Source: Dissophora ornata (Eukaryota > Mortierellomycota > Mortierellomycetes > Mortierellales > Mortierellaceae). From it: DNA of 64,000 nt. The notes under the pieces are model-generated. The model was not told where the DNA came from. It did not search any database and saw only the letters and a program-made list of their open reading frames with translations. The translations under genes and the position numbers were made by a program. Of this stretch, positions 1 through 28,175 are shown in pieces. The stretch's first letter is position 1; every line of letters begins with the position of its first letter. The stretch is from positions 20,055 through 84,054 of the forward strand of contig MU616607.1 of the NCBI GenBank assembly GCA_025201705.1. Direction: 5' to 3'.

Positions 1-1225
1 TGGGACTAGAAGAGGAGGAGGGATGTTCGCGAGGTTGGAGGCGCTGAGGATGTGGAGAAAAGAGACGGATTTATCTCGCTATTTGTACCTTTTCCAGTTG
101 GTTAGATTCTCCAATCTGGTGTCAAAGGATAGCTGCGGAGAAATGGTCGCCAGCCAGGCTCTGGTGCATCCAGTGTAGCCATATGCTCCAGCTAAGGCAA
201 TGTCTGTGGGGCTAGACAAAATCATGCCGCAGTACATGCCGTGCCTTAGTGTTACACGCACTAATCAAAGCATGGTGACTGCTGTCGACTGAATTAACAA
301 TAGCTGCCGTAGACCAGCGCCGAACCGGCTATTTGCTTGAGAACTGAAGCGTCAGGAACAGCAAGAATGGCTTCTAATTCATTGAGAGAGTTCAGAGTTC
401 AATCGGCATTCGGTTAAAAAGAGAGCCTGTTTATTTTGGTTACGCAAGACCATTATAATATGGATATCGTAAAAATCACAAACCTTTCACAGGCATGGAT
501 ATAACCTTTACGATTTCCACACACGTACACAATGGCTAAACATACCGTAGTTTTGATTCCATCCAAACCGGCTTTCCATCGCCAACGAACGGTTCACGCG
601 GCGGGACCTATCGGCTCCTGGCCCGAAGCTCGTGAATAAATTATTGACGCGCAATGCGATATTTATCTTAACTGTTTATTGCCCCCGAAAGGATGCATGT
701 ATGCAATATCACGTTGTCTGATGCAGGTTAAGACACATGGCAGATCGTCAGCTCAATCTCTCCACTTTGCTCACCACTTCATCCCCGTCGCCCACTCCAC
801 ACGAAGATGTGGCAGAATGGGAAATCCTCTCATTTCTCATGAATCAATATGTTGATGGACAAGCTGCTTGTCCCTTTGTCGAGCAGAACTGTGATATCCA
901 CCAGTGACAGAGCTGGGTATATAGCCTAGCATGTCGATATGCCCATTGGTCTGTCGGTGCGAATGTGATGTATTGCGTTTCTGCTCTCCTGGAAAATATG
1001 GCAAATAACCTGATTTTGGGTTGTGGAGAAACACATGTACGCCGCCATTCCACAACTGGCGAATTTTAATGTCCGCCTGCGAGTCCCTGAAAACATCCCG
1101 TCCCATGCGCTGGTCTTATGACATATGCCTTGCATCGCACACCGTACCCCATTCCGCAACGTCAACGGGGCTGCCTGTAATCACTAATGCAATCTAGTAC
1201 ATAGGGGTTTATCGCACATCATCTT
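1..1225. repeat. Unit 1 spacer (5' flank of an off-window lipase plus conserved spacer)
   Basis: No supportable gene. Bases 1-300 are the leader and promoter of a lipase copy transcribed leftward out of the window. The core-promoter block resembling GTACAAATAGCGAG on the minus strand lies near 85. Bases 440-1225 repeat in every unit, including a block around 960-1050 that ends in a TTTCTGCTCTCC(A/T)GG stretch resembling a splice acceptor. Short frames here are conserved only because the DNA is duplicated. Confidence 0.7.
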
Positions 1226-1229
1226 CACT

Positions 1230-2030
1230 TGCATGCTTGTAGGCAGCCGTCATAGAGTAAGTACATTCCGCGCTTTTTCAAACTACCAGACGCATGACCG
1301 ATGCGCTCGACATGGTGTTCATGTTCACATGGATGGAAGCACTCAAATTGAATCCTCGGATGCATATTCTACCGGGCAGATTGAGCACAGTTCGTAGGTT
1401 GAGTTATTACTCCAATTTTTTTGGACATCCGGTTGCGTTATTACAATAATGGAGTCTGATGAAAGCGCAGGCGTTGCATGCATCATCGTCGTAAACGTCG
1501 ACATTCGGGTTGTCTTGTTAGCACCGGGTGAGCTGTCAGATTACGAGCGGCGAGACAAATCGCTGCTCCACAGCTTACCTACCCGAGCTAGGTTCACGAG
1601 GGTGTTGTTCTGGTTCTCTGGCTGGGGTTCGTGCGGGTTTCCGTCGTCGTTTGGAGAAGCATTGATTTTCCAAAGCCCGATCAGTCGTTCCTCCGTTATA
1701 CATCACCGCCGCAGGGACTAGGGTGTAGTTCTTGTCAAGAAAGAGGTGTTGTTGAGATGCGTAAATGCGGATGGGGAAGGACTTGTTGATGGTTCTCTGT
1801 TCCAGTAGATGTGCTTTCACACCGTCCATAGCATATTCTACTGCTGTCTGTTGTGGAGTTGATCGGGAGAACTTTAGGATCATGACCGCAAGGCAGAATG
1901 TTGAAAGATGGAGGTAAGCTTTTAAATCCACATGTATTCCCAGCGTTGACACTATCTCGGAGCAATGACCGTGGAGGGATGCGCAGAAAAAGGAATACTG
2001 ACTCACAGAGTTCAATGAAGAGCAACGTCA
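1230..2030 (-). pseudogene. PA-domain / RING-H2 E3 ligase remnant, unit 1
   Basis: Minus-strand remnant of the gene seen best in unit 3. The PA-like segment is open (about 1700-1960; the frame contains LEQRTINKSFPIRIYASQ and LFLDKNYTLVPAAVMY). The linker after it is frameshifted, ending in an Arg/Pro-rich false tail, and the RING-H2 segment at about 1230-1400 is badly eroded. The signal-peptide exon near 2010-2040 is partly deleted. It lies head-to-head with the acyl-CoA oxidase remnant. An intact ancestor of this kind would be a membrane ubiquitin ligase of the PA-TM-RING group (inference). Confidence 0.7.
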
Positions 2031-2109
2031 ACCCAGCACCATCATTGGTGGCAAAGAGAATTTAAAATTGGTGCAAATTCAAAACAGCTGCCTACATCCA
2101 CAGGTAAAC

Positions 2110-3611
2110 ATTCTTGTGTAACCGCAACCAAGTGGTGGATTAGTGGGCAACTCACACGGCCACACACTGCGTTGTCTTTGCACAGCTCATTGTCCGCAAC
2201 TAGTGTAACGGAACAAAGTCTTTTATCGCTCAGGTCCGTAACACTCATACCTACAACTTGATGCACAGTGTCAACATTGGCGATGTCGGAAAGAATAAGG
2301 GCCGCGACGGCATTGATAGCGGCTGGATCCAGTTCACAAACGTCCGCATTCCCCGTACCAATATGCTGATGAAGCACACCAAGGTTTCGCGTACTGGCGA
2401 GGTAAAGGAACCTGCCGTGGCCCAGTTGACCTATGGCGTTCCGATTCAGGGCCATGTTGCTATGGTTGTTGACTCGGGCAACATTGCCAAGAAGGCTGTC
2501 GCGATCACAGGTCGCTATGCTGCCAGTTCTCTTCCAACCCTTATGAAGTTCAAGAGACCAAACTGATTGGCTATGCCATCCGCCAGTACCGCCTCATGCC
2601 ACTCTCAGCCCAGGCATATGCTTTCCACCCTGCGGGTGTCGAGACCAACAAGTTATACGAGAAACTCATGGACAAGCTCGAGTCGACTCATCCTGATGAC
2701 GCTTCAACGGATGCAGTGATTGATAGACTCATGCTACCTCGGCTGGATTGAAAGCTTTCCGCACTTGGTCAACGTTGAATGCCATCGAGGCCTGTCGCCA
2801 AACTCTCGGTGGTCATGGATACTCTGCTTGCACTGACCTCTCCACCACCTACAACGATTTTGCTGTCCACACCTGGGATGGAGACAATACCATTCTGACT
2901 CTCCAATCAGGATGTTATCTCGTCAATCGCTACCGTGAGGCACTCGCCGGAAAGACGACTAAAAGGAGTCGATCACCTCAACAATCTCGACACACTTCTC
3001 ATTCAAATATGTGCAGTCAAGACTCTCGAGGAGATCTTAGACTTTGATGTTATCCAGCAAGTTTGGGGTGTTGGCGCTGCCAAATTTTTCAAGAAACCTG
3101 AGGTGACTCTAGTGTATCGCTGAAGCAGGGTATGAACCCTGAGGTTGCATACGAGGAGTGCTCTCAGGCGCGTCTGACTGCCTCGAAGATTCATGCTTCC
3201 GGTTGCGTTCTCCGTCGTTTTGCTCAGGCCACCAAGAGTGCCTCCGAGGGTCTCCGCCCTGTCTTGAACAAGATTTGCCTGCTTTACGGTCTCTACTCGA
3301 TCGAGCAAAACTCTTGGTTCTTCCTGAAGTACCGCTGTTTCACACCTTCACAAATAGACTTTGTTCGTTCTTAGGTCAATGTCCTCTGCAATGATGTCCG
3401 TTAATAGTACATTCCGTTGATCGATGCATTCAATTATTTCGATTACATGATCAACTCGACCTTGGGAGTGTATGATGGAAACGCGTACGAGAAATACTTT
3501 GATCAGGCCAAGGGACAGGACCCTATTTGCCAGCCACACACATACTTGACATTGATTCAGTCGCTTCTCCGCAGCGACATTAAGGATGATGGCAACGATG
3601 ACGATGAGTAG
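2110..3611 (+). pseudogene. Peroxisomal acyl-CoA oxidase remnant, unit 1
   Basis: Plus-strand fragments of an acyl-CoA oxidase, the FAD enzyme of the first step of peroxisomal beta-oxidation. Recognisable pieces are TKWW, then GRDGIDSGWIQFTNVRIPRT, LMKHTKVSRTGEV, the central helical part (GGHGYSA, the FAD-region segment) and a C-terminal LTLIQSLL ending in an acidic tail and TAG at 3609-3611. The frame is broken several times, for example by the TAG in the VRS*VNVL segment near 3373. The N-terminal quarter expected of the family is absent: homology begins just beyond the RING gene's start. At 3225-3227 this unit still has CAG where units 3-5 have TAG, so its sequence is ancestral at that site. 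Confidence 0.85.
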
Positions 3612-3901
3612 AGATATTATAGTGTACCGAGAGCTTAGAAAGCACATACACACTCATTGGAAATCAATATAAAACTCAAAAGCGACATGTCAATCGTGTC
3701 AACGATTTATTTTGCTCTTGAAGAATAACATAATACATCAAGAAGATAAGAGGATGTCCTGCATAACACCTGTCTCTTAGCAGGTATGTAAATGTAGAGG
3801 CACATTGTCATGGATCGAACCAAGCGTGCAACGCGGGAATGAAACAGGGTGGTGGACGATTGGATCATAGGGTATGCGTTACAGTGAGGTGTGCCAAATC
3901 A

Positions 3902-4979
3902 CTACAAACTTATGAGAGACGAGCAGTTAGCTGTTTTTGCATTCGAGGGGTCGAGCTGGTTGAGAACGAACCGAAGAACCACGATGGAGTTGATCATAGT
4001 CACTAAATGTAGAGCCGTGCGAGAATGTTTAGTTTAAAGCGTATGGTACAAATCAACGAGGTATAAGATAGGGAACTTCTGGTTGGAAGTCTTACAATGT
4101 TCGTTCAAGGAAAGGGAGCAGAGGTCCTGGAGCACAACATTGGTGACACCAGTGTCGTTCTGGAAGCAGGTCGTGTAAGGGGTAACAACTTCGTCGTATC
4201 TATCATTCACCGTACCAAGACAGGAGACAATGGTTAGCGTGATAAACAAGGGCCGCATCGCTCTACTTCAATATAAATCCGAATTATGCTTACTTGGTGG
4301 CAATGTTCGAGAAAATGACACCAGGGGCTGTATCGCCTCCGGCGTTCAACTTGGTCATGAATGTCGAGCCAGACACCATCTCGGTGAACGATGGGGCAAA
4401 CAAGTTAAAGAACGCCGCCAAAGGTGAAAAGATGCCCCATGCTTTGGTCAACGTCGTGAGCGAGTCCAAAGTGGTACCACGGGTGACCGGCGAGATGCCG
4501 ATGTGTCGGTAAACCTTGCCGGCACCGTCCAAGTACTTCATCCAATATCTAGCAAGAATGCCGCCTTGGGAATGGCCAACGATATCGACTTGCGTCACAT
4601 TCATCTTGGCCAGGACATTGTCAGCGAAGGTAGCTAATTCTTGGGCGGAATGCTCGACGGAAGCCAGACCGCCAACGCCAGGGAGGCTGTATATGCCGTA
4701 GGTAAGTCCAAAAACACAGTAACCGTTTTTGATGAATACAGGTGCGAATGTCCACCACGAGTCGACGGTGAGTAGGGTGGAATGAACCAAGATCAAAGGA
4801 CGCGGGTGGGCGGCAGTCAGCTTGCAGTTGTAGTTGTTGATGCCGGAAATCGCACGCTTTTGAAGACCAGTAACTGGAGAATCGGTGCTCACAGGTAGAG
4901 CAGCAACTTGGACAACCGAAAGAGCCACGAGAATAGCGGCAGATGCGGCGCCCAGAACTGAGGAGATGGCAAACTTCAT
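3902..4979 (-). CDS. Secreted class-2 lipase, copy A (3 exons)
   Basis: Exons 4979-4294, 4199-4096 and 4002-3902 join to give 296 aa. Both introns are GT-AG (donors GTAAGC and GTAAGA, branch-like CTAAC before the first acceptor). Residues 1-28 form a signal peptide. A Lys-Arg pair near residue 41 could be a Kex2 propeptide site. The oxyanion region RPLILVHSTLLTVDSWW is followed by GHSQGG (nucleophile Ser), YDEVVTPY (acid Asp, exon 2) and LNEH (catalytic His at the exon 2/3 junction). This is the pattern of Lipase_2 alpha/beta hydrolases (Streptomyces LipA-like), which hydrolyse extracellular acyl esters. It is one residue shorter than copies B-E in the loop after GLTYG. Confidence 0.9.
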
Positions 4980-4989
4980 TTCGATGGAG

Positions 4990-6400: not shown

Positions 6401-6404
6401 TCGC

Positions 6405-7190
6405 ATGCCTGTGGGCAACCGTCATAGAGCAAGTACATTCCGCGCTGTTTCAAACTGCCAGACGCATGACCGATGCGCTCGACATGGCATTCATGCTCAC
6501 ACGGGAGCACTCGAACCGAATCCTTGGCCGCATATTCTACCAAGCAGAATGAGCACAGTTCTTAGATTGGGTTATTGCCCCAAGATTTTTGAATCTGATG
6601 AAAGCGCAGGTGGTGTTTGCATCGCCGCCGTAAACGTTGACATTCGGGTTGTCTCGTTAGCGCCGGGTGAACTGTCAGATGACAAATCGCGAGACGAATC
6701 ACGGCTTCACAGCCTTCCCGTCCGAGTCAGGTTCATGAGGGTATTGTTATGGTTCTCTGGCTGAGGTTTGTGCAGTTTTCCGTCTTCGTTCGGAGAGTCA
6801 TTGATTTTTCCGAAGCCCGATCAGTCGTTCCTCCGTTATACATCACTGCCGCAGGGACCAGGGTGTCGTTCTTGTCAGGAAAGTGGCGTTGTTGAGAGGG
6901 TAAATTCAGATGGGGGAGGACTTACTGGTGACTCTCCGTTCTAGTACGCGTGCTTTCTCACTGCCCATAGCATATTCTACTGTTGTCTATGGCCGCAAGA
7001 CAGCATGTTTAAAGATGGAGCTGGGCTTGTCAATCAACACGTATTCCCAGCGTTAATACTATCTCAGAGCAATGACCGCGGAAGGATGTTCAGAAAAAGT
7101 AATACCGACTTACAGAGTCCAATAAAGAGCAACATCAACCCGCCAATAGACATCCTCGTTGAGATCGAGGCAGAGTTCTATTGAGAGCGA
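6405..7190 (-). pseudogene. PA/RING-H2 E3 ligase remnant, unit 2
   Basis: Same gene as in unit 3. The signal-peptide exon is at about 7115-7190, and its ATG has become ATA. The PA-like part near 6830-7000 has internal deletions and the linker and RING-H2 parts (6405-6760) are frameshifted. Only the plus-strand antisense is open over long stretches, which is not evidence of coding. Confidence 0.65.
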
Positions 7191-7254
7191 AGTTGGTGGC
7201 AAAAAAAATTTAAAAGTTGGTGAAATTCAAAACAGGCAGCATTTGAAGTGCCCA

Positions 7255-8804
7255 CATCCACAGGTGAACATTCCTGTGTAACCGTAACCAAGTGATGGAT
7301 TGGAGGCCAGCTCATACGTTCACACACTGCGTTGCCTTTGCACAGCACATTGTTCGCGGCAAGTGTAACGGAACAAAGTCTTTTGTCGCTCAGGTCCATA
7401 ACACTCATACCTACAACATGATGCACAGTGTCAACATTGGCGATATCGGAAAGAAGATGGGTCGCGACGGTATTGATGGCTGGATGTAGTTCACAAACAT
7501 CCGCATTCGTACTAACATGTTCACGAGATATACCGAGTTTTCACGTACTGGCGAGGTTAGGGGGCTCCCCGTGGCCCAGTTAACCTATGGCGCTCCGATT
7601 AAGGGCCATGTTGCTATGGTTTTTGACTAGGTCAACATTGTCAAGAAGGCTGTCATGATCGCAGGTCGCTATGCTGCCAGTTCTATTCCTACCCGCATGA
7701 CGTTCAAAAGTCCAAGCTGATTGACTACGCAATCCACCAGTACCGCCGTATACCACTCTTGGCCCAGGCATTTGCCCCTCGCGGGTGTTGAAACCAACAA
7801 GTTGTACGAGGAACTCATGGATAAGCTCGAGTCGACTCAGCCTGACGACGCTTCGATGGGTGCAGTGATTGATACCCTCAAAAAAACTCATGATACCTCG
7901 GCTGAATTGGAAGCTTTTTGGGCCTGGTCGACGTGGAACGTCATCGAGGTCATTCGCCAGACTCTTAGCGGTCATAGTTATTTTGCACACACTGGTCTCT
8001 CCACCACCTACAACGAATTTTCTGTCCACTGCACCTGGGATGGAGACAATACTTTCTGACTCCCTAACCCGAACGTTATCTCGTCAATTGCTACAATGAG
8101 GCACTCTCCGGGAAGACTAAACTAGAAGGAGTTGATCACCTCTACAATCTCGACACACTCCTAACCCGAGGATGTGCGGTCAAGACTCTCGAGGAGATCC
8201 TGGACATTCATGTTATCCAGCAAGTTTGGGGTGTCGTCACTGTCAACGTTGTCACGGAAGCTGAGATGGCTTCAGTGTATCGCTGAAGCAAGGTATGAAC
8301 TCTGAGGTCGCATAGGAGGAGCGCTCTCAGACTCGTCTTGTAGTCGCGAAGATCTATTCTTTCGGTTACGTCTTCCGTCGTTTCACTCAGGCTGTTGAGA
8401 GTGCCTCCGAGGGTTTCCGCCCTGTCTTGACAAAGATTTTCCCCCTTTGCGGATCCTACTTCACTGATAAAAACTCTGGGGTTTTCCTTTAGTACCGCTG
8501 CTTCACACCTTCGCAGATGGACCTTGTTCGTTCTCAGGTCAATGTTCTCTGCCGCGATTTCCGTCAGGAGTACATTCCGTTGATTGATGCGTTCAATTGT
8601 CCCGATTACATGTTCAACTCGCCCTTGGGAGTGTATGATGGAAAATACGAAAAGTACCTTGATCAATTCAAGAGGCAGAACATTGTTGGCCAGCCACACC
8701 TATACTTGACCTTGATTCAGTCGCTTCTCCATCGCGACATTGAGAATGATGAAACTCTCGAAGATGATGGCGAGTGGAGATATTGTAGTGCACCGAGAGC
8801 TTAG
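7255..8804 (+). pseudogene. Acyl-CoA oxidase remnant, unit 2
   Basis: Fragments in order: THCVAFAQHIVRGKCNGTKS, NIGDIGKKMGRDGIDG, the KLYEELMDKLESTQPDDAS helix segment (7795-7860), LSTTYNEFSVHCTWDGDNT, and a C-terminal frame (8517-8804) with YLTLIQSLLHRDIEN. TAG codons interrupt it at IDGWM*FTN (about 7487-7489) and elsewhere, and a frameshift follows CTWDGDNT. The N-terminal part is missing as in the other units. The site that is TAG in units 3-5 is still CAG here (8388-8390). Confidence 0.85.
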
Positions 8805-9090
8805 AAAGAACATATCCGCTCGTTAGGACATCAATACGACACTCCAAAGCGACATGTCCATAGTTCGTGTCAACGATTTATTTTGAGCATTAAGACATAA
8901 TACAATATATTAAAAAGACAAGAGGATGTCCTGCATCACACCTGTCTCTTAGAAAGTCTGTACATGTAGAGTCACATTGCGATGGATCTACTAAGGGGGG
9001 TGGATCAAACCAAGCGTGCAACGCGAGGATGAAACAGGATGATTGACTCTAGGACCATAGGTATGTGTTACAGTGCGGTGTTTGAATTCT

Positions 9091-10172
9091 CTACGCACTT
9101 ATGAGGTTCAGGCAGTTAACTGTCTTTGCATTCGAGGGGTCAAGCTGGTTGAGAACGAATCGAAGAACCACGAAGGAGTTGACCATGGTCACTAAATGTA
9201 CAGCCGTGGGAGAATGGTTTAGTTTAACGCATATAGGACAGATCAACGAGACATAAGATAGGGAACTTCTGGGTGAAAGTCTTACAATGTTCGTTCAAGG
9301 AAAGGATGCAGAGGTTTTGAAGCACAACATTGGTGACGCCAGTGTCTTCCTGGAAGCAGGTAGTGTAAGGGGTGACAACCTCGTCGTATCTATCATTCAC
9401 CATACCAGGACAGGAAACAATGGTTAGCATGATAAACAAGAGCAACAGCGCTCTACTTCAATATATATCCAAACTATGCTTACTTGGTGGCAATGTTTGA
9501 GAAAATGACACCAGAGGCTGTATCGCCTCCGTCGTTCAACTCGGTCATGAATGTCGAGCCGGACACCATCTCGGGGAATGATGGGGCAATTACGTTAAAG
9601 AACGCCGACAAGGGTGCAAAGACGCCCCATGCTTTGGCCCATGTCGCGAGCGAGTCCAGCGTGGTGCCATGGGTGATCGGCGAGATACCGATGTGTCGGT
9701 AAACCTTGCCGGCACCGTCCAAGTACTTCATCCAATATCTAGCAAGAATGCCGCCTTGGGAATGGCCAACAATATCGACCTGCGTCACATTCATCTTGGC
9801 CAGGACATTATCAGCGAAGGTAGCCAATTCTTGGGCGGAGGACTCGACGGAAGCCAGACCACCAAAGCCAGGGATGGTGGGGTATAAGCCGTAGGTGAGT
9901 CCAAAGACACAGTAGCCGTTTTTGATGAGTACAGGTGCGAATTCCCACCACGAATCGACGGTAAGCAGGGTGGAATGGACCAGGATCAAAGGACGCGGGT
10001 GGGCGGCAGTCAGCTTGCAGTTGTAGTTGTTGATGCCGGAAATGGTGCGCTTTTGAAGACCAGTAGCTGGTGAATCGGCGCTCATAGGGAGAGCAGCAAC
10101 TTGGACAACCGAAAGGGCCACGAGAATAGCGGCAGATGCAGCGCTCAAGACCGAGGAGATGGCAAACTTCAT
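9091..10172 (-). CDS. Secreted class-2 lipase, copy B (3 exons)
   Basis: Exons 10172-9484, 9389-9286 and 9191-9091 give 297 aa. Signal peptide residues 1-28, Lys41-Arg42 possible Kex2 site, NVT glycosylation sequon at Asn128, nucleophile Ser138 in GHSQGG, acid Asp232 in YDEVVTPY and His264 in LNEH. Exon phases are identical to copy A. Exon 2 carries Glu-Asp (FQEDTG) where copy A has Asn-Asp. Extracellular lipase/esterase by family; substrate range cannot be read from sequence. The intact frame contrasts with the two broken genes in the same unit. Confidence 0.9.
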
Positions 10173-10184
10173 TTTAATGGAGTG

Positions 10185-11565: not shown

Positions 11566-11570
11566 TATCT

Positions 11571-12421
11571 TCACTCGCATGCTTGTAGGTAACGATCATA
11601 GAGCAAGTACATTCGGCACTGTTCAACACTGTCGGACGCATGACCGATGCACTCGGCATAGTCTTCATGTTCACATGGGAGTGCTCGAATTGAATCCTCG
11701 TTCACATATTCTGCCAGGCAGATTGAGCACAGTTCTTGGGTTGAGTTATTACCCCAGGATTCATGGACATCCGGTCGCGTTGTTACAATATTGGGGTTTG
11801 ATGAAAGCGCAAGAGTTATTTTCATCACCGTCATCGTAAACGTCGACATTGAGACTATCTTATTAGCACTGAGTGAGCTGTTAGATGACGAGCAGCGCGA
11901 TGAATCGCGGCTCCAAAGCCTTCCTGTCCTAGCCCGATTCATGACGGCGTTTTTCTGGTTCACTGGCTGGGGTTCGTACAGTTCTCTTTCTTCATTTGGA
12001 GAATCATTGATTTCTTTCAAAGCCTGATCAGTTATCCCTCCGTCATAAGTCGCCGTCGTAGTGACTAGGGCGTGGTTCTTGTCAAGAAAGAGGTGTTGTT
12101 GAGAGGGCTAGATGCGGATGGGGAAGGACTTATTGACGGTTCTCTGTTCTAGGATGAGTACTTTCTCATGGTCCATAGCATATTCTACTGATGTTTGTTG
12201 TGGAGTTGTTTGGAAGAATCTTAGGATCATGTCTGCAAGACAGCCTATTGAAAGATGGAAGTAGGCTTGTCAGCCAGCATGCATTACCTGCGTTGATGCT
12301 ATCTCGGAGCAAAGAGTCAGAAAGGATGTGCGAATAAAGGAGTAACTACTTATAGTCCAATCAAGAGCAACATCAATCCGCCAATAGCCAGCACCCTCAT
12401 TACGCTCGAGGCAGAGTTCAT
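11571..12421 (-). pseudogene. PA/RING-H2 E3 ligase remnant, unit 3 (best preserved)
   Basis: The start ATG at 12421 opens a signal-anchor peptide ending VLAIGGLMLLLIGL. An intron-like stretch follows, then the PA-like segment in fragments, then one long frame (12020-11571) through a Ser-rich linker to a RING-H2-like motif. That motif reads CSICLAEY ... LPCEHEDY ... ECIG ... QCRMY. Zinc ligands are lost: the second His of the HxxH pair is Tyr and the final CPxC has become CRMY. The family is a membrane-bound PA-TM-RING ubiquitin ligase (inference from domain order). It is classed as a pseudogene because of the ligand loss and frame breaks upstream. It sits back-to-back with the acyl-CoA oxidase remnant, with less than 100 bp between. 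Confidence 0.72.
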
Positions 12422-12479
12422 TGCGAGCGAGGTTGGTGGCAAAGAGAATTTACAAGAGCAACTACATATAATGTGCCCG

Positions 12480-13996
12480 AATTCACAGGTGGACATTTTT
12501 GTGTAACCGCTACCAAGTGGTGGATTGGAGGAGCGGCCCATACGGCCGCCCACTGCGCTGTCTTTACACAGCTCATTGTCCGCGACAAGTGCTACGGATC
12601 AGAGTCTTTTGTGACTCAGGTTCGTGACACTCACACCTAAAACTTGACACCCGGTGTCCAAATAGGCGATATCGGAAAGAAGATGGGTCGCGACGGTATT
12701 GATAACGGCTGGATCCAGTTCACAAGCGTCCTCATCCCCCGTACCAACATGCCGATGAAGCACACCAAGGTTTCACGAATTGGGCAGGCTAAGGAACCTC
12801 CCATGGCCCAGTTGACTTACGGCGCTCCCATCCAGGGCCGTGTTGCTGTCGTCGTTGACTCAAGCAACATTGTCAAGAAGGTTGCCACGATCGTAGGTTG
12901 CTATGCTGCTGTCCGTTGCCAGTTCCCCTCCATCCCTCATAACATCCAAGAGACCAAACTGATTGGCCGTGCCATCTACCAGTACCGCCTTATGACACTC
13001 TTAGCCCAGGCATATGCCTCCCACTTCACGGGTGTCGAGACCAACAAGTTGTACGGGAAACTCATGGCCAAGCTTGAGTCGACTAATCCTGATGACGCTT
13101 CGATGGGCGAAGTGATTGGTAGCCTCAAATAGACTCATGCAACCTCGGCTGAATTGAAAGCCTTCCGCGCCTGGTCAACGTTGAACTCCATAAAGGCCTG
13201 TCGCCTGACTCTCGGCGGTCATGGATACTATGCTCACACTGGTCTCGCCACCACCTACAACGACTTTTCTGTCCACTGCACCTGGGATGGAGACAATACT
13301 ATTATGACTCTCCAATCCGGACGTTATCTCGTCAATCGCTACCGTGAGGCGTTCACCGGAATGATGCAACCAGAAGGAATGAACTACCTCAACCATCTCG
13401 ATGCTTTTCTCACTCAAGGATGCGCAGTCAAGACTCTCGAGGTGATTTTGGACTTCGATGTTATCCAGCAAAATTGTGGTATCGTCACTACCGCCGTTGT
13501 CAATAGAGCTAGAGATGGCTTTAGTGTTTCGCTGAAGCAAGGTATGAACTCTGAGGCTGCATACGAGAAATGCTCTCAGGCGCGTCTGGCTGCCTTGGAG
13601 ATCCATTCTTTCAGTTACGTCGTCCGTCGTTTCACTTAGGCTGTCAAGAGTGCCTCCAAGGGTCTGCGCCCTGTCTTGACCAAGATTTGCCTCCTACACG
13701 GTCTCTACTCGATCAAGCAGAACTCTTGGTTCTTCCTGCAGTACCGTTATTTCACACCTTCACATATTTGTTCGTTGTCAGGTCAATTTTCTCTGCTGCG
13801 ATGTTCGTCAGGAGTACATTCGGTTGGTCGATGCATTCAATTATTCCGATTACATGATCACTCAGCCTTGGGAGCGTATGATGGAAACGTGTACGAGAAG
13901 TACTTTGATCAAGTCACCCTATTGGACAGTCACACCCATACTTTCTCGCTTCTCCGCCGCGACATTGATGATGGTGGCGACGATGACTACGAGTAG
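12480..13996 (+). pseudogene. Acyl-CoA oxidase remnant, unit 3
   Basis: Best-preserved copy of the oxidase remnant. The 12644-13132 frame carries GRDGIDNGWIQFTSVLIPRT and AKEPPMAQLTYGAPIQGR. A TAG stops it at 13130-13132 (GSLK*THA), and the frame reopens at 13154-13639 with GGHGYYAHTG and SVHCTWDGDNT. A second TAG at 13637-13639 is shared with units 4 and 5. The frame then continues as AVKSASKGLRPVLTKIC. A frameshift after FTPSH (about 13763) is shared with unit 4. The tail ends acidic at 13994-13996. FAD/acyl-CoA dehydrogenase-fold middle and C-terminal domains only. Confidence 0.87.
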
Positions 13997-14280
13997 AGAT
14001 ATTATAGTGCACCAAGAGCTTAGAAAACACATACCCGCTCATTAGAACAGCAATATAACACGCAAAAGCGACATGTCGATAGTTTGTGTTAACGATTTAT
14101 TTTGCGCACGAAGGCATAACACTATACATTAAGACAAGGGGACGTCCTGCATCACACCTGTCTCTTAGAAAGTCTGTACATCATTGTGATGGATCGAGCC
14201 AAGCGTGTAAGGTGGGAATAAAATAGAATAATGGACGATAGGATAATAGGGTATGTGTTACAGTGAGGCGTTTGAATTCT

Positions 14281-15362
14281 CTACGCACTTAAGAGGTTCA
14301 GGCAGTTAGCTGTCTTTGCATTCGAGGGGTCGAGCTGGTTGAGAACGAATCGAAGAACCACGAAGGAGTTGACCATGGTCACTAAATGTACAGCCGTGGG
14401 AGAATGGGTTAGTTTAAAGCGTATAGGACAGACCAACGAGACATAAGATAGAAAACTTCTGGTTGGAAGTCTTACAATGTTCGTTCAGGGAAAGGGCGCA
14501 GAGGTTCTGAAGCACAACATTGGTGACGCCAGTGTCTTCCTGGAAGCAGGTAGTGTAAGGGGTGACAACCTCATCGTATCTATCATTCACCGTGCCAGGA
14601 CCGGAAACAATGGTTAGCGTGATAAACAAGGGCAACAGCGCTCTACCTCACTGTATATCCAAACTATGCTTACTTGGTGGCAATGTTTGAGAAAATGACA
14701 CCAGAGGCTGTGTCGCCTCCGTCGTTCAACTTGGTCATGAATGTCGAGCCGGACACCATCTCGGTGAATGATGGGGCAATTACGTTAAAGAACGCCGACA
14801 AGGGTGCAAAGACGCCCCATGCTTTGGCCCATGTCGCGAGCGAGTCCAGAGTGGTGCCATGGGTGATTGGTGAGATACCGATGTGTCGGTAAACCTTACC
14901 GGCACCTTCCAAGTACTTCATCCAATATCTAGCAAGAATACCGCCTTGGGAATGGCCAACAATATCGACCTGCGTGACATTCATTTGGGTCAGGACATTG
15001 TCAGCGAAGGTAGCCAATTCCTGAGCGGAGGACTCGACGGAAGCCAGACCACCAAAGCCAGGGATGGTGGGGTATAAGCCGTAGGTGAGTCCAAAGACAC
15101 AGTAACCGTTTTTGATGAGTACAGGTGCGAATTCCCACCACGAATCGACGGTAAGCAGGGTGGAATGGACCAGGATCAAAGGACGCGGGTGGGCGGTAGT
15201 TAGCTTGCAGCTGTAGTTGTTGATGCCGGAAATGGTGCGCTTTTGAAGACCAGTAACTGGAGAATCGGCGCTTATAGGGAGAGCAGCAACTTGGACAACC
15301 GAAAGAGCCACGAGAATAGCGGCAGATGCAGCGCTCAGGACCGAGGAGATGGTAAACTTCAT
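14281..15362 (-). CDS. Secreted class-2 lipase, copy C (3 exons)
   Basis: Exons 15362-14674, 14579-14476 and 14381-14281 give 297 aa with signal peptide, Lys-Arg pair, GHSQGG, YDEVVTPY and LNEH all present. It differs from copies A and B by LTQMNVTQ and YLEGAGK, both shared with copy D. About 250 nt around 14857-15112 are identical to the matching part of copy D, consistent with recent duplication or gene conversion. The promoter has a small duplication (TTTGTAC repeated near 15505). Confidence 0.9.
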
Positions 15363-15374
15363 TTTGATGGAGTG

Positions 15375-16730: not shown

Positions 16731-16734
16731 TTCT

Positions 16735-17585
16735 AGACGACCGTCATAGTATAAGTACAATCGGCACAGTTTCAACATTGCCGGACGCATGACTGACGCA
16801 CTCGACATTATATTCATGTTCACATAGGAGAGCACCAATTTAATCCCCGGTCGTATATTCTACCAGGAAGAGCGAGTACAGTTCTTAGCACAGTTCTTGG
16901 GTTGAATTATTACTCCAAGATTCTTGGGCATCTGGTTGCACTGTTACAATAACAGAGTCTGATGAAAGTGCAGGTGTTGTTTGCATCACCGCCGTCATAG
17001 TCGTCGCCATTCGGGCTGTCTGGCTACCGCTGGGTGAGCAGAAAGATGATGAGCAGCGAGACGAATCCTGACTTTACAGCTTTCCTATCCGAGCCAGGTT
17101 CATGAGGGTATTGTTCTCGTTCGCTGGTTGGGGTTCGTACGGTTTTTCATCTCCGTTTGGAGAATCATTGATTCCTTTCAAAGCCTGGTTAGTTGTCCCA
17201 CAGTCATACATCGCAGTCGTGGTGACTAGCGCGTGGTTATTGTCAAGAAAGAGGTGTTGTTGAGAGGGTTAGACACGGATGGGGAAGGACTTATTGACGG
17301 TTCTCTGTTCTAGGATGAGTGATTTCTCACGGTCCATAGCATATTCTACTGATGTTTGTTATGGAGTTGTTTGGGAGAATCTTAGGATCATGTCTGCAAG
17401 ACAGCCTATTGAAAGATGGAAGTAGGCTTGTCAGCCAGCATGCATTCCCAGCGTTGATGCTATCTCGGAGCAAAGAGTCAGGAAGGATGTGCGAATAAAG
17501 GAGTAAAAACTTACAGAGTCCAATCAAGAGCAACATCAACCCGCCAATAGCCTGCACCCTCAATGAGATCGAGACAGAGTTCTAT
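16735..17585 (-). pseudogene. PA/RING-H2 E3 ligase remnant, unit 4
   Basis: The signal-peptide exon is at 17510-17585, its ATG replaced by ATA, but its donor GTAAGT (minus strand, 17511-17516) is intact. PA-like and linker segments between 17100 and 17420 are frameshifted. The RING-H2 segment near 16740-16900 is degenerate. Confidence 0.65.
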
Positions 17586-17639
17586 TGCGAGCAAAGTTGG
17601 TGGCAAAGAGAATTTACATGAGCCACCACATACGAGGTG

Positions 17640-19227
17640 CTCATGTCCACAGGTGGACATTCTTGTGTTACCGCTACCAAGTGGTGGATTGGAAGAACGA
17701 CCCATACAACGACCCACTGTGTTGTCTTCACACAGCTCATTGTCCGCGGCAAGTGCTGCGGAACAAAGTCCTTTGTTGCTCAGGTCCGTAGTACTCATAC
17801 CTACAACTTAACGCTCGGTGTCAACATTGGTGAACATAGGAAAGAAGATGGGTTATGACGGTATTCATAACGGCAGGATCCAATTCACAAACATCTGCAT
17901 CCCCCGCACCAGCATGTTGATGATGCCCACTAAGGTTTCACATACTGGTGAGGTTAAGGACTCTCCCATGGCCCAGTTGACATATGCCGATCGGATTCAG
18001 GGCCGTGTTGCCGTAGTTGTTGACTCGGGTAACATTGTCAAGAAGGTTGTCACGATCGCAGGTTGCTATACTGTTGCCCGTCGCCAGTTCTCCTCCAACC
18101 TCCATAACGTCCAACAGACAAACTGATTGGCTATGCCATCCACCAGTACCGTCTTATGCCACGCTTAGCCCAGGCTTATGCACCTCACTTCACGGATGTC
18201 GAGACCAACAAGTTGTACGAGGAACTCATGGACAAGCTCGAGTCGACTCATCCTGATGACGCTTCGATGGGTGCAGTGATTGATACCCTCAAAAAGAGTC
18301 ATGCTACCTTGGCTGTATTGGAAGCCTTCTGCACCTGGTCAACGTTGAACGCCATAGAGGCGGCCTGTCGCCAGACTCTCGGCGGTCATGGGTACTCTGC
18401 TTACACTGGTATCGCCACTACCTACAACGATTTTTCTGTCCACTGCACCTGTCATGGAGACAGTACTATTCTAAACCTCCAATCCGGACACTATCTCGTC
18501 AATCGCTGCCGTGAGGCGCTCACCGGAATGACGCAACCAGAAGGAGTGGACTACCTCAACCATCTCGACACACTTCTCACTCAAGGATGTGCAATCAAGA
18601 CTCTCGAGAAGATCTCGGACTTTGACGTTATCCACAAGCTTGGAGTATCGTCACTACCACCGTTGCCAAGAGAGCTGGAGATGGCTTTAGTGTATCGCTG
18701 AAGCAAGGTATGAACTGTGAGACTGCATACGAGGAGTGCTCTCAGGCGCATTTCGCTGCCTCGGAGATCCATTCTTCGGTTACGTCTTCCGTCGTTTCAA
18801 TTAGGCTGTCAAGAGTGCCTCCGAGGGTCTCCGCCCTATCTTGACCAAGATTTGCCTCCTACACGGTCTCTACTCGATCAAGCAGAACTCTTGGTTCTTC
18901 CTGCAGTGCCGTTATTTCACACCTTCACATATTTGTTCGTTGTCAGGTCAATTTTCTCTGCTGCGATGTTCGTCAGGAGTACATTCCGTTGATAGGTGCA
19001 TTCAATTATTCCGATTGCATGATCACTCGGCCTTCGGAGTGTATGATGGAAACGTGTACGAGAAGTGCTTTGATCAGGCCAAGAGACAGGACCCTGTTGG
19101 GCAGCCACACCTATACTTGACCTTGATTCAGTCGCTTCTCTATCGCGACATTGAGGATGATGAGCCTCTCGAGGATGGTGGGGATGATGATGGCGAGTCG
19201 AGATACTATAGTGCACCGAGAGCTTAG
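17640..19227 (+). pseudogene. Acyl-CoA oxidase remnant, unit 4
   Basis: Fragments run from TKWWIG (about 17678) through NIG..HRKEDGL (frameshifted), PMAQLTYADRIQGRVAVV, a long frame 18156-18701 with KLYEELMDKLESTHPDDAS and GGHGYSAYTG, and a C-terminal frame ending at 19227. TAG at 18802-18804 is shared with units 3 and 5. The frameshift after FTPSH (about 18930) is shared with unit 3. The normal terminal TAG has become TCG, so the frame runs on into RYYSAPRA. Confidence 0.85.
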
Positions 19228-19485
19228 AAAGCACATACCCACTCATTAGAACATAAATACAGCACTCTAAAGCGGCATGTCGATAGTTTGTGTGAACGAT
19301 TTAATTTGCTCACGAAGGCATACATTAAGACGAAGGGACGTCCTGCATCACACCTGTCTCTTAGAAAGTTTGTAAATGTAGAGCCACATTGTGATGGATC
19401 GAGCCAAGTGTGTAAAGTGGGAATGAAATATAATAATGGACGATAGGATAATAGGGTATGTGTTACAGTGAGGCGTTTGAATTCT

Positions 19486-20567
19486 CTACGCACTTAAGAG
19501 GTTCAGGCAGTTAGCTGTCTTTGCATTCGAGGGGTCGAGCTGGTTGAGAACGAATCGAAGAACCACGAAGGAGTTGATCATGGTCACTAAATGTACAGCC
19601 GTGGGAGAATGGTTTAGTTTAACGCGTATAGGACAGATCAACGAGACATAAGATAGAGAACTTCTGGTTGGAAGTCTTACGATGTTCATTCAGTGAAAGG
19701 GCGCAGAGGTTCTGAAGCACAACATTGGTGACGCCAGTGTCTTCCTGGAAGCAGGTAGTGTAAGGGGTGACAACCTCATCGTATCTATCATTCACCGTGC
19801 CAGGACCGGAAACAATGGTTAGTGCGATAAACAAGGGCCGCATCGCTCTACTTCAATATATATCCAAACTATGCTTACTTGGTGGCAATGTTCGAGAAAA
19901 TGACACCAGAGGCTGTATCGCCTCCGTCGTTCAACTCGTTCATGAATGTCGAGTTGGCCACCATCTCGGGGAACGATGGGGCAATTACGTTAAAGAACGC
20001 CGACAAGGGTGCGAAGACGTCCCATGCTTCGGCCCATATCGTGAGTGAGTCCAGAGTGGTACCATGGGTGATTGGTGAGATACCGATGTGTCGGTAAACC
20101 TTACCGGCACCTTCCAAGTACTTCATCCAATATCTAGCAAGAATACCGCCTTGGGAATGGCCAACAATATCGACCTGCGTGACATTCATTTGGGTCAGGA
20201 CATTGTCAGCGAAGGTAGCCAATTCCTGAGCGGAGGACTCGACGGAAGCCAGACCACCAAAGCCAGGGATGGTGGGGTATAAGCCGTAGGTGAGTCCAAA
20301 GACACAGTAACCGTTTTCTATGAGTACAGGTGCGAATTCCCACCACGAATCGACGGTAAGCAGGGTGGAATGGATCAGGATCAAAGGACGCGGGTGGGCA
20401 GTAGTCAGCTGGCAGCTGTAGTCGTTCATGCCGGCGATATCGCGCTTTACAAGGCCAGTAACTGGAGAGCCGGCCTTCATAGGGAGAGCAGCAACCTGGA
20501 TGGCCGAAAGAGCCACGAGAATGGCGGCAGATGAAGCGCTCAGGACCGAGGAGATGGTAAACTTCAT
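19486..20567 (-). CDS. Secreted class-2 lipase, copy D (3 exons)
   Basis: Exons 20567-19879, 19784-19681 and 19586-19486 give 297 aa. The start chosen is the MKFTISSV methionine shared by all copies. The frame is open for another 40 codons upstream (to 20687), but that stretch is leader DNA in the other copies. The propeptide region reads VKRDIAGMNDYSC as in copy E, whereas the central part is identical to copy C, so the gene is a mosaic. The second donor context is CATC|GTAAG instead of CATT|GTAAG and still gives Leu after the catalytic His. Confidence 0.9.
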
Positions 20568-20569
20568 TT

Positions 20570-22885: not shown

Positions 22886-22886
22886 T

Positions 22887-23735
22887 TCACTCGCATGCTT
22901 GTAGGCAACCATCATAGAGCAAGTGCATTCGGCACTTTCCAACACTGTCAGACGCATGACCGATGCTCTCAATATGGTATTCATGTCCACACGAGAGCAC
23001 TCGAATCGAATCCGCGGTCGAATATGCTACCAGGCAGATCGAGTACAGTTCTTGGGTTGAGTTATTAACCCCAGATTCTTGGACATCCGGCTGCATTGTT
23101 ACAATAATAGAGTTTGATGAAAGCGCAGGTGTTGTTTGCATCACCGCCGTGGACGTTGACATTTGGGCTGTTTTGTTAGCGCTGAGTGAGCTGTCAGATG
23201 AGGAGCAGCCAGACGAATCACGGCTCTACAGCCTGCTAATCCGAGCTAAGTTCATGAGAGTATTGTTCTAGCTCGCTGACTGGGGTTCGTACAGTTTTCC
23301 GACTTCGTTTGTAGAATCATTGATTTCTTTCAAAGCCTGATCAGTTGTCCCACAGTCATACATCACCGCCGCAGTGACTAGGGTGTCGTTCTTGTCAAGA
23401 AAGAAGTTTTTATGATAAGGGTAGATGCGAATGGGGAAGGACTTATTGACGGTTCTCTGTTCTAGGATGAGTACTGTCTCATGGTCCATGGCATATTTTA
23501 CTGATGTTTGTGAAGTTGTTTGAGAGAACCTTAGAATCATGTCCGCAAGACAAGCTGTTGAAAGGTGGAGGTACGCTTGTTAGTCAGCATGCATTCCCTG
23601 CGTTGATGCTATCTTGGAGCAAAGAGTCAGGAAGGATGTGCGAATAAAGGAGTACCAACTTACAGAGTCCAATCAAGAGCAACATCAATCCGCCAATAGC
23701 CTGCACCCTCATTGAGGTCGAGGCAGAGAACTTAC
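22887..23735 (-). pseudogene. PA/RING-H2 E3 ligase remnant, unit 5
   Basis: A PA-like segment is open at 23540-23268 (LEQRTVNKSFPIRIYPYH, DTLVTAAVMYDCGTTDQA). A RING-like segment at 23162-22887 has CLVAY and SCGHEYHIES, so the first cysteine and the ECI cysteine are replaced. The signal-peptide ATG region near 23730 is deleted. Confidence 0.7.
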
Positions 23736-23764
23736 AAGCTCAACCACATATGAAGTACCCAAAT

Positions 23765-25261
23765 TCACAGGTGGACATTCTTGTGTAACCGCAGGATTGG
23801 AGGAGTGGCTCATACGGCCACCCGGGGCAATCGCTACGGAACAAAGTCTTTTGTCGCTAAGGCCCGTGACAGTCGTACCTATAACTTAACGCCCGGTGTC
23901 CACATAAGTGATATCGGAAAGGAGATGGGTCGCGACGGTATTGATACTGACTGGATCCAGTTCACATACATCCGCATCCCCCGCACCAACATGATGATGA
24001 AGCACCCCGAGGTTTCATATACTGGCGAGGTTAAGGAGCCACCCATGACCCAGTTGAACTATGGTGCTCTGAGTCAGGGCCGTGTTGCTATTGTCGTTGA
24101 CGCGGTCGATATCGAAAAGAAGGCTGCCACAATGGCAGGTCACTATGCCACTATCCGTCCCCAGTTCCCCATACGTTCAAGAGACCAAACTGACTGACTA
24201 CGCCATCCACCAGTACCACCTTATGACAGTCTTAGCCCAGGCATATGCACTCCACTTCACGGGTGTCGAGAGCAACAAGTTGTACGAGGAACTTATGGAC
24301 AAGCTCGAGTCGACTCAGCCTCACGATGCTTCGATGGGTGAAGTGATTGATAGACTCATGCTACCTCGGCTTGATTGAAAGCCTTCTGCACCTGGTGAAC
24401 GTTGAGCGCCATCGAGGGCTGTTGCCAGACTCTCGGCGGCCATGGATACTTTGCTTACCCTTGTCTCGCCACCACCTACAACGATTTCGCTGTCCACTTC
24501 ACGTGCGAGGGAAGCAATACCATTCTGACTCTCCAATCCGGACGTCATCTCGTCAATTGCTACCGTGAGGCACTCACCAGAAAGACTCAACCAGAAGGAA
24601 TCGATCACCTCAACAATATCGACACACTTCACACTCAAGGACGTGCAGTCAAGACTCTCGAGGAGATCATGGACTTTGATGTTATCCACTAAGCCTGGGG
24701 CATCATCACTGCCAACGTTGTCAAGAAAGCTGAGATGACTTCAGCGTATCGCTAAAGAAGGGTATGAACCGTGAGACTGCATTAGAGGAGTGCTCTCAGG
24801 CGTGTTTGGCTGCCGCGAAGATCCAAACTTTCGTTTACGTCTTCCGTCGTTTCACTTAGGCTGTTAAGAGTGCCTCCGAGGGTCTCCACCCTGTCTTGAC
24901 CAAGAAATGCATCCTTTGCGGTCTCTACTCGATCAAGCAGGACTCTGGATCCTTCCTGCAGTACCGTTGTTTCACACCTTCGCAGATGGACCTTGTTTGT
25001 CCTCTAGTCAATGTCCTCTACTGCGATATCCGTCAGGAGTACATTTTGTTAATCGATTCATTCAACTATTCCGACTACATGATCAACTCGGCCTTCGGAG
25101 TGTATGATGGAAATGTGTACGAGAAGTGCTTTGATTAGGCCAAGGGACAGAACCCTGTTGGGCAGCCACACCCATACTTGACCTTGATTCAGTCGCATCT
25201 CAGCCGCGACATTGAGGGTGGTGAGCATCTCGAGTATGATGGTGATGATGTTGACGAATAG
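23765..25261 (+). pseudogene. Acyl-CoA oxidase remnant, unit 5
   Basis: The frame 23781-24197 carries the YNLTPGVHISDIGKEMGRDG and PPMTQLNYGALSQGR segments. Then come a frameshift, KLYEELMDKLESTQPHDAS, a second frameshift in the helical region, and a C-terminal part broken by TAA at 24690-24692, TAG at 24857-24859 (shared with units 3 and 4) and TAG at 25136-25138. It ends in an acidic tail at 25259-25261. The N-terminal domain is missing. Confidence 0.85.
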
Positions 25262-25578
25262 AGACATCGGAGTACACCGAGAGCTTAAAAAGAACATACC
25301 AACGCAATAGAACATCAATACAACACGCAAAAGCTACATGTCAATAGTTCGTGTCAACGATTTATTTTGCTCACGAAGAATAAAATAATACATTAAAAAG
25401 ACAAGAGGATGTCCTGCATCACACCTGTCTCTTAGAAAGTCTGTACATGAAGAGCCATATTGTCATGGATCTACTGAGGGATCGTGGATCGAACCAAGCG
25501 TTCAACGCGGGAATGAAATAGGATGATGGACGATATAATCGTAGAGTATGTGTTGCAATGGGGCGTGTCAATTCTCTA

Positions 25579-26657
25579 TTAAAACAAGAGAGACAGGCAG
25601 TTGGCAGTCTTTGCATTCGAGGGGTCGAGCTGGTTGAGAACGAACTGAAGAACCACCAAGGAGTTGACCATGGTTACTAAATTCATAGGCGTGCGAGAAT
25701 GGGTTAGTTTAACGCGTATAGGACAGATCGGCGAGGTATAAGATAGGGAGCTTCTGGTTGGAAGTCTTACGATGTTCATTCAGCGAAAGGATGCAGAGGT
25801 CCTGGAGCACAACATTGGTGACACCAGAGTCCTCCTGGAAGCAGGTAGTGTAAGGGGTAACAACCTCGTCGTATCTATCATTCACCGTACCAAGACAGGA
25901 TACAATGGTTAGCGTGATAAACAAGGGCCGCATCGCTCTACTTCAGTATAAATCCATGCTTTGCTTACTTGGTGGCAATGTTTGAGAAAATGACACCAGA
26001 GGCTGTATCGCCTCCGGCGTTCAACTTGTTCATGAATGTCGAGTTGGTCACCATCTCGGTGAACGATGGGGCAATTACGTTAAAGAAATCCGACAGGGGT
26101 GCAAAGACGCCCCATGCTGCGGCCCATATCGTGAGTGAGTCCAGAGTAGTGCCATGGGTGATTGGTGAGATACCGATGTGGCGGTAAACCTTGCCGGCAC
26201 CGTCCAAGTACTTCATCCAATACCTAGCGAGGATGCCGCCTTGGGAATGGCCAACAATATCGACCTGCGTGACATTCATTTGGGTCAGGACATTGTCAGC
26301 GAAGGTAGCCAATTCCTGAGCGGAAGACTCGACGGAAGCCAGACCACCAAAGCCAGGGATGGTGGGGTATAAGCCGTAGGTGAGTCCAAAGACACAGTAA
26401 CCGCGATTGATGAGCACAGGTGCGAAGGTCCACCACGAGTCGACGGTGAGCAGGGTGGAATGGACCAGGATCAAAGGGCGCGGGTGGGCGGCAGTCAACT
26501 TGCAGCTGTAGTCGTTCATGCCGGCGATATCGCGCTTTACAAGGCCAGTAACTGGAGAACCGGCCGTAATAGGAACAGAAGCAACCTGGACAGCCGAAAG
26601 AGCCACGAGAATAGCGGCCGATGCGGCGCTCAGAACTGAGGAGATGGCAAACTTCAT
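25579..26657 (-). CDS. Secreted class-2 lipase, copy E (3 exons)
   Basis: Exons 26657-25969, 25874-25771 and 25676-25579 give 296 aa. It has a signal peptide, a propeptide ending in Lys-Arg (VKRDIAG), GHSQGG, YDEVVTPY and LNEH. The second glutamate-containing loop reads FQEDSG. The C-terminus LSLLF differs from the LNLISA type of copies B-D and resembles copy F. It is the outermost right-hand copy of the array. Confidence 0.9.
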
Positions 26658-26669
26658 GGTTGATGGAAT

Positions 26670-28175
26670 GTATCGTATATCCGTAAAGGAAGTGGAGGGC
26701 GCTGTAGTTTGTAGCTGGTGGGACTAGAAGGGGAGGAGGGATGTTCGCGAAGTTGGAGACGTTGCGGATGTGGAGAAAAGAGACCGATTTATCTCGCTAT
26801 TTGTACCTTTTCCAGTTGGTAGTTTTCTCTAATGTCACTGTCAAAGGGTAGCTGCAGAGGGATGGTCGCCAACCAGGGTCTGGTGCATTTGGTGTAACCC
26901 TGCGCTCCAGCTAAGGCAATGTCAGTGGAGTTGGACGCAAACATGCCACAAGATATGATGCTGAGCCTTGTGTTGCGCAAAGTAACCAAAGTACATGTAC
27001 ACTGGTTGTTGGATAATGAGAGCTGTTGTTGAGTGGCGCCGATTATTTGCTGCTGAATATTATGTCACGTAGAGTTTGTGCTCAGAAGTAAAATATGTAC
27101 TGCGCAGGGCGCAATAAAATCAACTTCATTGTTTGAATAAGAACGGTCCTTTCTTGAACTGCAAGAATGGCAACAAAGCACTATAGTCTAGTGTATCGTC
27201 GGACAGAGTTTATGTCAATGGGCATTCGGATAAAAAGGGAGCCCGTTTATTTTGGTTACGCAAGACCATAATAATATGGATATCGTAAAAAAAACACACA
27301 CCCCCCACAGGAGATTGCGTTCTCCACACACGCAAACAATAAGATACTCTGTGGGGCTCGATACGTCTTGCGCGTGCCAGTGTTTTGATTCAAGGGAATC
27401 TTCTTACAAAGCGGATTTCCATCACTAACGAATGGTTAGCGCTGGAGGGCCTATCGGCGCCTGGCCCGATGCTCTCTATCTGGTATTTATTTTGACTGTG
27501 TAATGCCCCTGAAAGGATGCAAGTATGCAATATCACGTCGTCTGATGCAGGTCCAGGTACATGGGGAATCATGAACTCAATCCCTCCACTTTGCTCACCA
27601 CTTTGCTCACCACTTCATACCTCTCCCCCCACTCCACACGAAGATGTGGCAGAATGGGAAAATATCTCATTCCTCATCAAGCAATATGTTGATGGACAAG
27701 CTGCTTGCCCCTCTTTAGAGCGGAACTGTAGTTCTCGCCAGTGACAGAGCTGGGTATATACCCTGGCGTGTTGACATGTCTGTTAGCATGTTGGCGCGAA
27801 TGTGATGAATTGCGTTTCTGCTCTCCAGGAAAATATGGCGAATACATGTGCTTCTCCACAATTCACAAACAGGGTAGAAATATGAGCACCGTGTTCATGT
27901 GCACCGCAAAGTCCAAATGTCTTTTTTTTTGAACACTTCTGGGTCAGCAGTGCCATCCTATCCGCTGGTGTCATGATATGCCTTGCATCAATGCTCATTA
28001 ATGCATCTGCACACCGTGCCACATTCCGCGGCGTCGACGGCGTCGCCTTTATTCACTAATGCAGTCTAGTTCATAAGATCCTATCGCATATCATCCTCAG
28101 TCGCATGCTTAATGGCAACCGGCATATAGAGCAAGTACTGAGCATTCGGCACTACTTCAACGCTTTCGGACGCAT
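26670..28175. repeat. Partial unit 6 at the array's right edge
   Basis: Lipase E leader, promoter and full spacer. The match to other units ends at about 28,175, just after TTTCGGACGCATG, which in other units belongs to the RING remnant's 3' end. No gene in it. Confidence 0.7.

Follow-up and report, generated by a model that had tools for sequence, protein, structure and literature searches.

Intact lipase genes held by purifying selection among truncated passenger genes in a tandem array of Dissophora ornata

Why does a tandem array keep one gene open in every repeat unit while the other genes of the same units are broken? This question is raised by a 64,000-nucleotide stretch of the Dissophora ornata genome (assembly GCA_025201705.1; hereafter the window), in which a predicted secreted lipase is repeated together with pieces of an acyl-CoA oxidase gene and a RING protein gene. 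The window corresponds to C46:20055-84054, the right end of the 84,054-bp contig MU616607.1 (here C46), in an assembly of 31.4 Mb and 968 contigs; window coordinates are contig coordinates minus 20,054. Codon-based comparisons of the repeated segments provide good support for the conclusion that the lipases have been retained by purifying selection on the protein.

The array comprises seven head-to-tail units (U1-U7) extending from C46:8876, outside the window, to C46:48230, with U1 and U2 (C46:8876-21350) lying left of the window and U3-U7 inside it. A first-pass annotation of the window had correctly counted five array copies there, but took the window edge for the edge of the array. Nine lipase copies carrying the unaltered serine motif at high identity were identified overall: seven in the array, one dispersed about 20 kb to its right, and a ninth on contig C761. 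The six copies within the window are all encoded on the minus strand in open frames (6/6) and, as that annotation described, retain the start codon, two introns, and the GHSQGG, YDEVV and LNEH motifs. The same holds for the complete set: all nine possess a spliced frame open from ATG to stop, encoding 295-297 amino acids (aa) over two introns with GTAAG donors (located by script search) and AG acceptors, and all nine contain GHSQGG, KYDEVV and LNEH, such that disabled lipases number 0/9. Intron lengths in the six in-window copies are 94 bp and 93-101 bp, with GT-AG ends. We take the aspartate of KYDEVV to be catalytic, and a Lys-Arg (KR) pair at residues 40-42, present in 9/9 copies, resembles a Kex2 processing site; the signal peptide is predicted from the hydrophobic N-terminus only.

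The fate of the passenger genes is best read against the founder unit, U1, which lies immediately to the left of the window and carries the genes in the order RING (-), acyl-CoA oxidase (+) and lipase (-). The founder oxidase has an uninterrupted 617-codon exon with three acyl-CoA oxidase/dehydrogenase domains; ahead of this exon the N-terminus is indicated by tblastn alone, through alignments covering residues 1-99 of a homologue of 714 aa, with introns presumed. In the codon tree the founder oxidase branch has a ratio of nonsynonymous to synonymous substitution rates (dN/dS) of 0.10. The Acyl-CoA_ox_N profile found no match anywhere on C46, the founder included, and the 120 proteins that the database search listed do not include the founder oxidase. 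The founder RING gene has two exons (C46:9460-8879 and 8787-8689), which match P0121, a database protein of 226 aa, at 100% and 97%, respectively. Judged on these features, both founder passengers appear intact. Also identified was a second acyl-CoA oxidase gene on C574, the protein of which (P0132) is 92% identical to the founder oxidase; this gene may lower the cost of losing the derived oxidase copies.

The derived units share one common deletion of ~2.15 kb. They align to founder positions C46:8876-9675 and then skip to ~11,912, with a junction that is identical in units 2-7 and C761 (founder landmarks 9,752 and 11,913), and the deletion removes the promoter side of the oxidase, its first exons and ~203 of 714 residues at the N-terminus. 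The unit boundary at C46:8876 adjoins the end of RING exon 1 (8879), and the derived RING copies therefore lack exon 2, which encodes the last part of the RING finger. With both passengers cut, no gene of the repeat other than the lipase is complete. The first-pass statement that passengers are broken in all copies thus applies to 6/6 derived array units but not to the intact-looking founder; furthermore, because the passengers were incomplete from the start, their decay says nothing about the lipase and serves only as a neutral yardstick. A scheme in which once-complete passengers decayed independently in each unit was rejected, given that the truncations are common to the derived units.

Measured by this yardstick, the difference is pronounced. 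Oxidase remnants of the six derived units have accumulated 57 disabling changes, 47 of them distinct and six shared between units (a count that omits deletions in the first 30 bases), and RING remnants carry at least one in-register stop in 6/6 units, with frameshifts in 4/6. At the rate of 47 changes per 6 x 1,533 bp of oxidase, ~36 disabling changes would be predicted in the eight non-founder lipases and ~27 in the six non-founder lipases of the array; none was observed in either set. Lipase synonymous divergence (dS) is of the same order as that of the oxidase remnants, which argues that the lipase copies are not merely too young to decay.

Estimates of dN/dS were obtained with self-written codon likelihood code, not PAML, after masking stops and broken codons and dropping insertions in the remnants, a treatment which slightly lowers remnant dN. 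Across the nine lipases, dN/dS was 0.314 by counting over 36 pairs and 0.316 by maximum likelihood, differing from 1 with twice the log-likelihood difference (2dlnL) = 130.6; constraining the lipases to the remnant value of 0.77 worsens the fit by 2dlnL 79. A value near 1, which the first-pass annotation had named as evidence against selection, was therefore not seen. The comparison of lipases with pseudogene segments that it proposed gave, for units 2-7, 0.37 (confidence interval, CI, 0.30-0.45) for the lipase, 0.73 (0.65-0.85) for the oxidase remnant and 0.91 (0.75-1.15) for the RING remnant, with a lipase CI that overlaps neither of the others. Terminal lipase branches range from 0.19 to 0.49, and 7/9 reject 1 (2dlnL > 3.84; U1, U2, U3, U4, U7, the dispersed copy and C761), six of them, all but U2, with 2dlnL >= 8.6. 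Conversely, terminal oxidase-remnant branches range from 0.65 to 0.95 and 0/6 reject 1 singly. Selection on the lipase, as first proposed, is thus borne out by its dN/dS, although not by the passenger decay from which it had been argued.

A number of observations weigh against this interpretation. The terminal branches of U5 and U6 are short and, each taken alone, compatible with dN/dS = 1, and U2 (2dlnL 4.9) fails correction for nine tests. Nor are the oxidase remnants fully neutral, with joint terminals at 0.77 (2dlnL 8.3) and units 2-7 at 0.73 (2dlnL 13.7), for which some constraint early on, conversion with the founder as donor, or a poor fit of the model may account. Internal lipase branches show a dN/dS of 0.60 versus 0.255 for terminals, owing either to looser early constraint or to something else. 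The trees of the codon fits ignore recombination, and conversion between units breaks their single-tree assumption. Finally, among the conversion tests described below, a shared run between U1 and U2 was also reached in 0/2000 permutations, but is located in the oxidase remnant, outside the lipase.

The alternative that survives best, although we consider it unlikely, is that copies were kept for differing substrates or conditions, with positive selection at some sites. Copies differ by dN up to 0.16, the internal branches are elevated as noted above, and under model M1a about 69% of lipase codons fall at 0.06 and about 31% near 1. Model M2a improved on M1a by 2dlnL 12.1 with all codons, but this gain shrank to 3.6 once the ragged C-terminal tail was removed, and was 3.0 when tail, signal and pro-region were all dropped, while a free second site class settled at only 1.10 and was no better than M1a. 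No robust positive selection was found among the nine lipases by M2a against M1a once alignment ends were trimmed; the diversifying selection apparent in the first M2a fit rested on the last codons and was rejected. Conversion, moreover, makes some copies alike instead of divergent.

Such conversion also speaks for neutral segmental duplication, in which copies are either not yet dead or kept open by conversion from one functional copy. Between U4 and U5, identity reaches 95.4% in the lipase region but 80.5% and 77.6% in the oxidase and RING remnants, and between U5 and U6 the corresponding values are 94.5%, 87.2% and 85.3%. Lipase dS in these pairs is 0.094 and 0.089, respectively, versus 0.324 and 0.201 in the oxidase remnant, and for each pair the longest shared run lies within the lipase and was matched by 0/2000 permutations. 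For U4-U6 the lipase excess is clear by identity, but the run was reached in 101/2000 permutations; these tests covered 21 unit pairs and are uncorrected. Taken together, these results support homogenization by conversion of some neighbouring lipases, clearest for U4-U5 and U5-U6. However, the lipases of U3-U7 are 85-88% identical to the founder lipase, which does not exceed the 85-89% identity of their oxidase remnants with the founder oxidase, and conversion from the founder is thus not what keeps them open. Despite the two short branches that do not individually reject 1, neutral duplication is rendered very improbable by the absence of disabling changes from the lipases against 47 in oxidase passengers of the same age, and by the six lipase terminals that each reject 1. 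On this point the first-pass annotation, which had argued against neutrality, is upheld.

Misassembly of the repeat, by which copies would have been made or chimerised, might be suspected of an expansion within a tandem repeat in a draft of 968 contigs, but is scarcely credible given that long stretches of the units diverge by anything from several to more than 20 percent, far above sequencing error, with copy-specific indels, and that by-eye comparison matches P0066 (from a 5,836-bp contig) with the unit 7 lipase and P0006 (21,064-bp contig) with the dispersed lipase, while P0121 (13,875-bp contig) matches the founder RING gene, all three proteins appearing to derive from a second assembly.

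We propose the following history for the array, to which, as a whole, we assign a probability of roughly 0.85. Junction alignments show that the founder locus first underwent tandem duplication, its breakpoints lying ~1.4 kb upstream of the lipase and where RING exon 1 ends, and that the oxidase N-terminus was then lost with the ~2.15 kb deleted between RING gene and oxidase body. The shortened unit would have been amplified, most simply by unequal crossing-over. By the statistics above, the truncated passengers subsequently decayed nearly neutrally while purifying selection on the protein preserved the lipases, some neighbouring copies of which were probably homogenised by gene conversion. 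The benefit would most likely have been more secreted lipase, that is, dosage.

Gene families that are amplified in tandem, evolve in concert and carry pseudogenised passengers at their flanks form a known class, which the present array resembles in its head-to-tail units, partial genes at unit ends and patchy conversion between neighbours. It differs from that class in that the founder unit persists with both passengers intact-looking, and the order of truncation and amplification is consequently directly readable. The array also supplies its own control, in that the derived units combine one complete gene with two equally old segments that were dead at the outset, and the founder still stands beside them. 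It thus illustrates a familiar process with unusually good controls, offering a clean natural gauge of how far amplified copies are constrained, as well as a test case for gene dosage in a family of enzymes secreted by early-diverging, oil-rich fungi. A further caution is that selection on a surviving gene should not be read from the decay around it before it has been checked whether the decayed neighbours were ever complete. No description of the array was found in the literature library searched, at the level of its listings.

Sequence variability around the lipases was also compared. Among the seven array copies and C761, mean divergence (K) was 0.121 in the proximal 200 bp upstream, 0.119 in exon 1, and 0.136 and 0.151 in the introns, rising to 0.216 and 0.186 downstream and 0.498 further upstream, where alignment is poor. 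The low proximal-upstream value would fit promoter constraint, though this region lies partly within conversion tracts; set against the higher downstream values, it may hint indirectly at expression of the copies. In the dispersed copy, intron 1 (46617-46710) shows a mean K of 0.100 to the array introns, while the corresponding values are 0.281 for intron 2, 0.473 upstream and 0.800 downstream; synonymous differences dip in codons 221-260. Constraint might account for the similarity of intron 1; a short conversion tract is only a guess, since synonymous differences dip in codons 21-40 as well.

The array genes are predicted to encode MAS1-like class 2 secreted lipases. The unit 5 protein matches Pfam PF01674 (Lipase_2) at 46.2 bits (curated cut-off 20.3), and residues 39-295 align to nearly the full chain of MAS1 from Streptomyces sp. 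W007 (PDB 5H6B/5H6G; E-value 3.7e-66), placing the GHSQG serine at MAS1 residue 109 and the LNEH histidine at residue 232. Ser109 and His232 of MAS1 are described as catalytic (PMC9146090). Unlike MAS1, the array lipases possess a fungal pre-pro region ending in KR, two introns and a fifth cysteine (241), the last present in 8/9 copies and missing from the dispersed one. Named lipase matches, among 120 listed of 4,549, comprised Mortierellaceae first and then Streptomyces at 45-48%, with no other fungi among those listed; a bacterial ancestry of the family might be entertained as a lead only.

A protein tree with 43 members (the nine copies and 34 of the 120 listed matches, hand-picked for species spread) united the nine copies in one clade at support 91, in which the dispersed copy is basal to those of the array; M. 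claussenii follows next. The dispersed locus retains patches of the upstream region (C46:68139-68795), while no oxidase or RING remnant beside it was found among the matches listed. For this reason, and on the strength of one tree, we infer that the dispersed lipase is an older relative and not an escapee from the array.

More distant lipase relatives were detected on C132 (65% identical), C476, C179 and C150. At C132:12892-20678, the relative lies ~4.5 kb from a distant acyl-CoA oxidase (32-38% identical to the Mortierella enzyme), making lipase and oxidase neighbours twice in the genome. At C476:17000-25819 we identified a second lipase tandem repeat, involving a different paralogue and unit and unrelated by descent to the C46 array. 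Like the array, it carries a lipase in direct repeats, here ~4.0 kb apart and 84% identical over 2.6 kb; fragments of the paralogue are 40-47% identical, and a third copy is cut by the contig end. A broader and decidedly tentative proposal, more doubtful than otherwise, is that D. ornata has repeatedly amplified secreted lipases as an adaptive dosage strategy, through the C46 array, the older dispersed copy and the independent C476 repeat, gene conversion being focused on the lipase together with its proximal promoter because haplotypes rich in good copies are favoured, and the unit having been pared early to the one gene that pays.

Table 1. Window coordinates of array and lipase features.
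Feature	Position	Strand	Details
Upstream region of unit 2 lipase	1..1296	.	lipase of unit 2 itself outside window
RING remnant, unit 3	1297..2034	-	exon 1 only; stops and frameshifts
Acyl-CoA oxidase remnant, unit 3	2121..3657	+	without N-terminal part; stops and frameshifts
Lipase, unit 3	3902..4979	-	exons 4979-4294, 4199-4096, 4002-3902; 296 aa, intact
RING remnant, unit 4	6469..7279	-	
Acyl-CoA oxidase remnant, unit 4	7287..8821	+	
Lipase, unit 4	9091..10172	-	exons 10172-9484, 9389-9286, 9191-9091; 297 aa, intact
RING remnant, unit 5	11643..12442	-	exon 1 only; one in-frame stop
Acyl-CoA oxidase remnant, unit 5	12506..14042	+	
Lipase, unit 5	14281..15362	-	exons 15362-14674, 14579-14476, 14381-14281; 297 aa, intact
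RING remnant, unit 6	16792..17606	-	
Acyl-CoA oxidase remnant, unit 6	17670..19246	+	
Lipase, unit 6	19486..20567	-	exons 20567-19879, 19784-19681, 19586-19486; 297 aa, intact
RING remnant, unit 7	22959..23728	-	exon 1 only; two in-frame stops
Acyl-CoA oxidase remnant, unit 7	23822..25306	+	
Lipase, unit 7	25579..26657	-	exons 26657-25969, 25874-25771, 25676-25579; 296 aa, intact
Right end of array	28176	.	= C46:48230
Dispersed lipase	46314..47396	-	exons 47396-46711, 46616-46513, 46411-46314; 295 aa, intact

By eye, the unit 6 lipase is the same as database protein P0001. The deposited protein P0003 represents the unit 3 lipase, but runs into intron 2 and stops early at 283 aa, which is likely an annotation error. 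On C761 (~1681-3661), the deposited hypothetical protein P0124 (EDD21DRAFT_357236) joins RING and oxidase remnants and is probably a spurious gene model. A search of the window against Rfam families found none. Unit 6 alone contains an insertion of ~1 kb (20830-21890), parts of which match C442 (81%), C352 (77%) and C794 (72%), and which is probably a dispersed repeat. Adjoining the array on its right, at 28640-29722, is a gene for an RNF220-like RING protein (PF15926, PF13923), which differs from the passenger RING gene.

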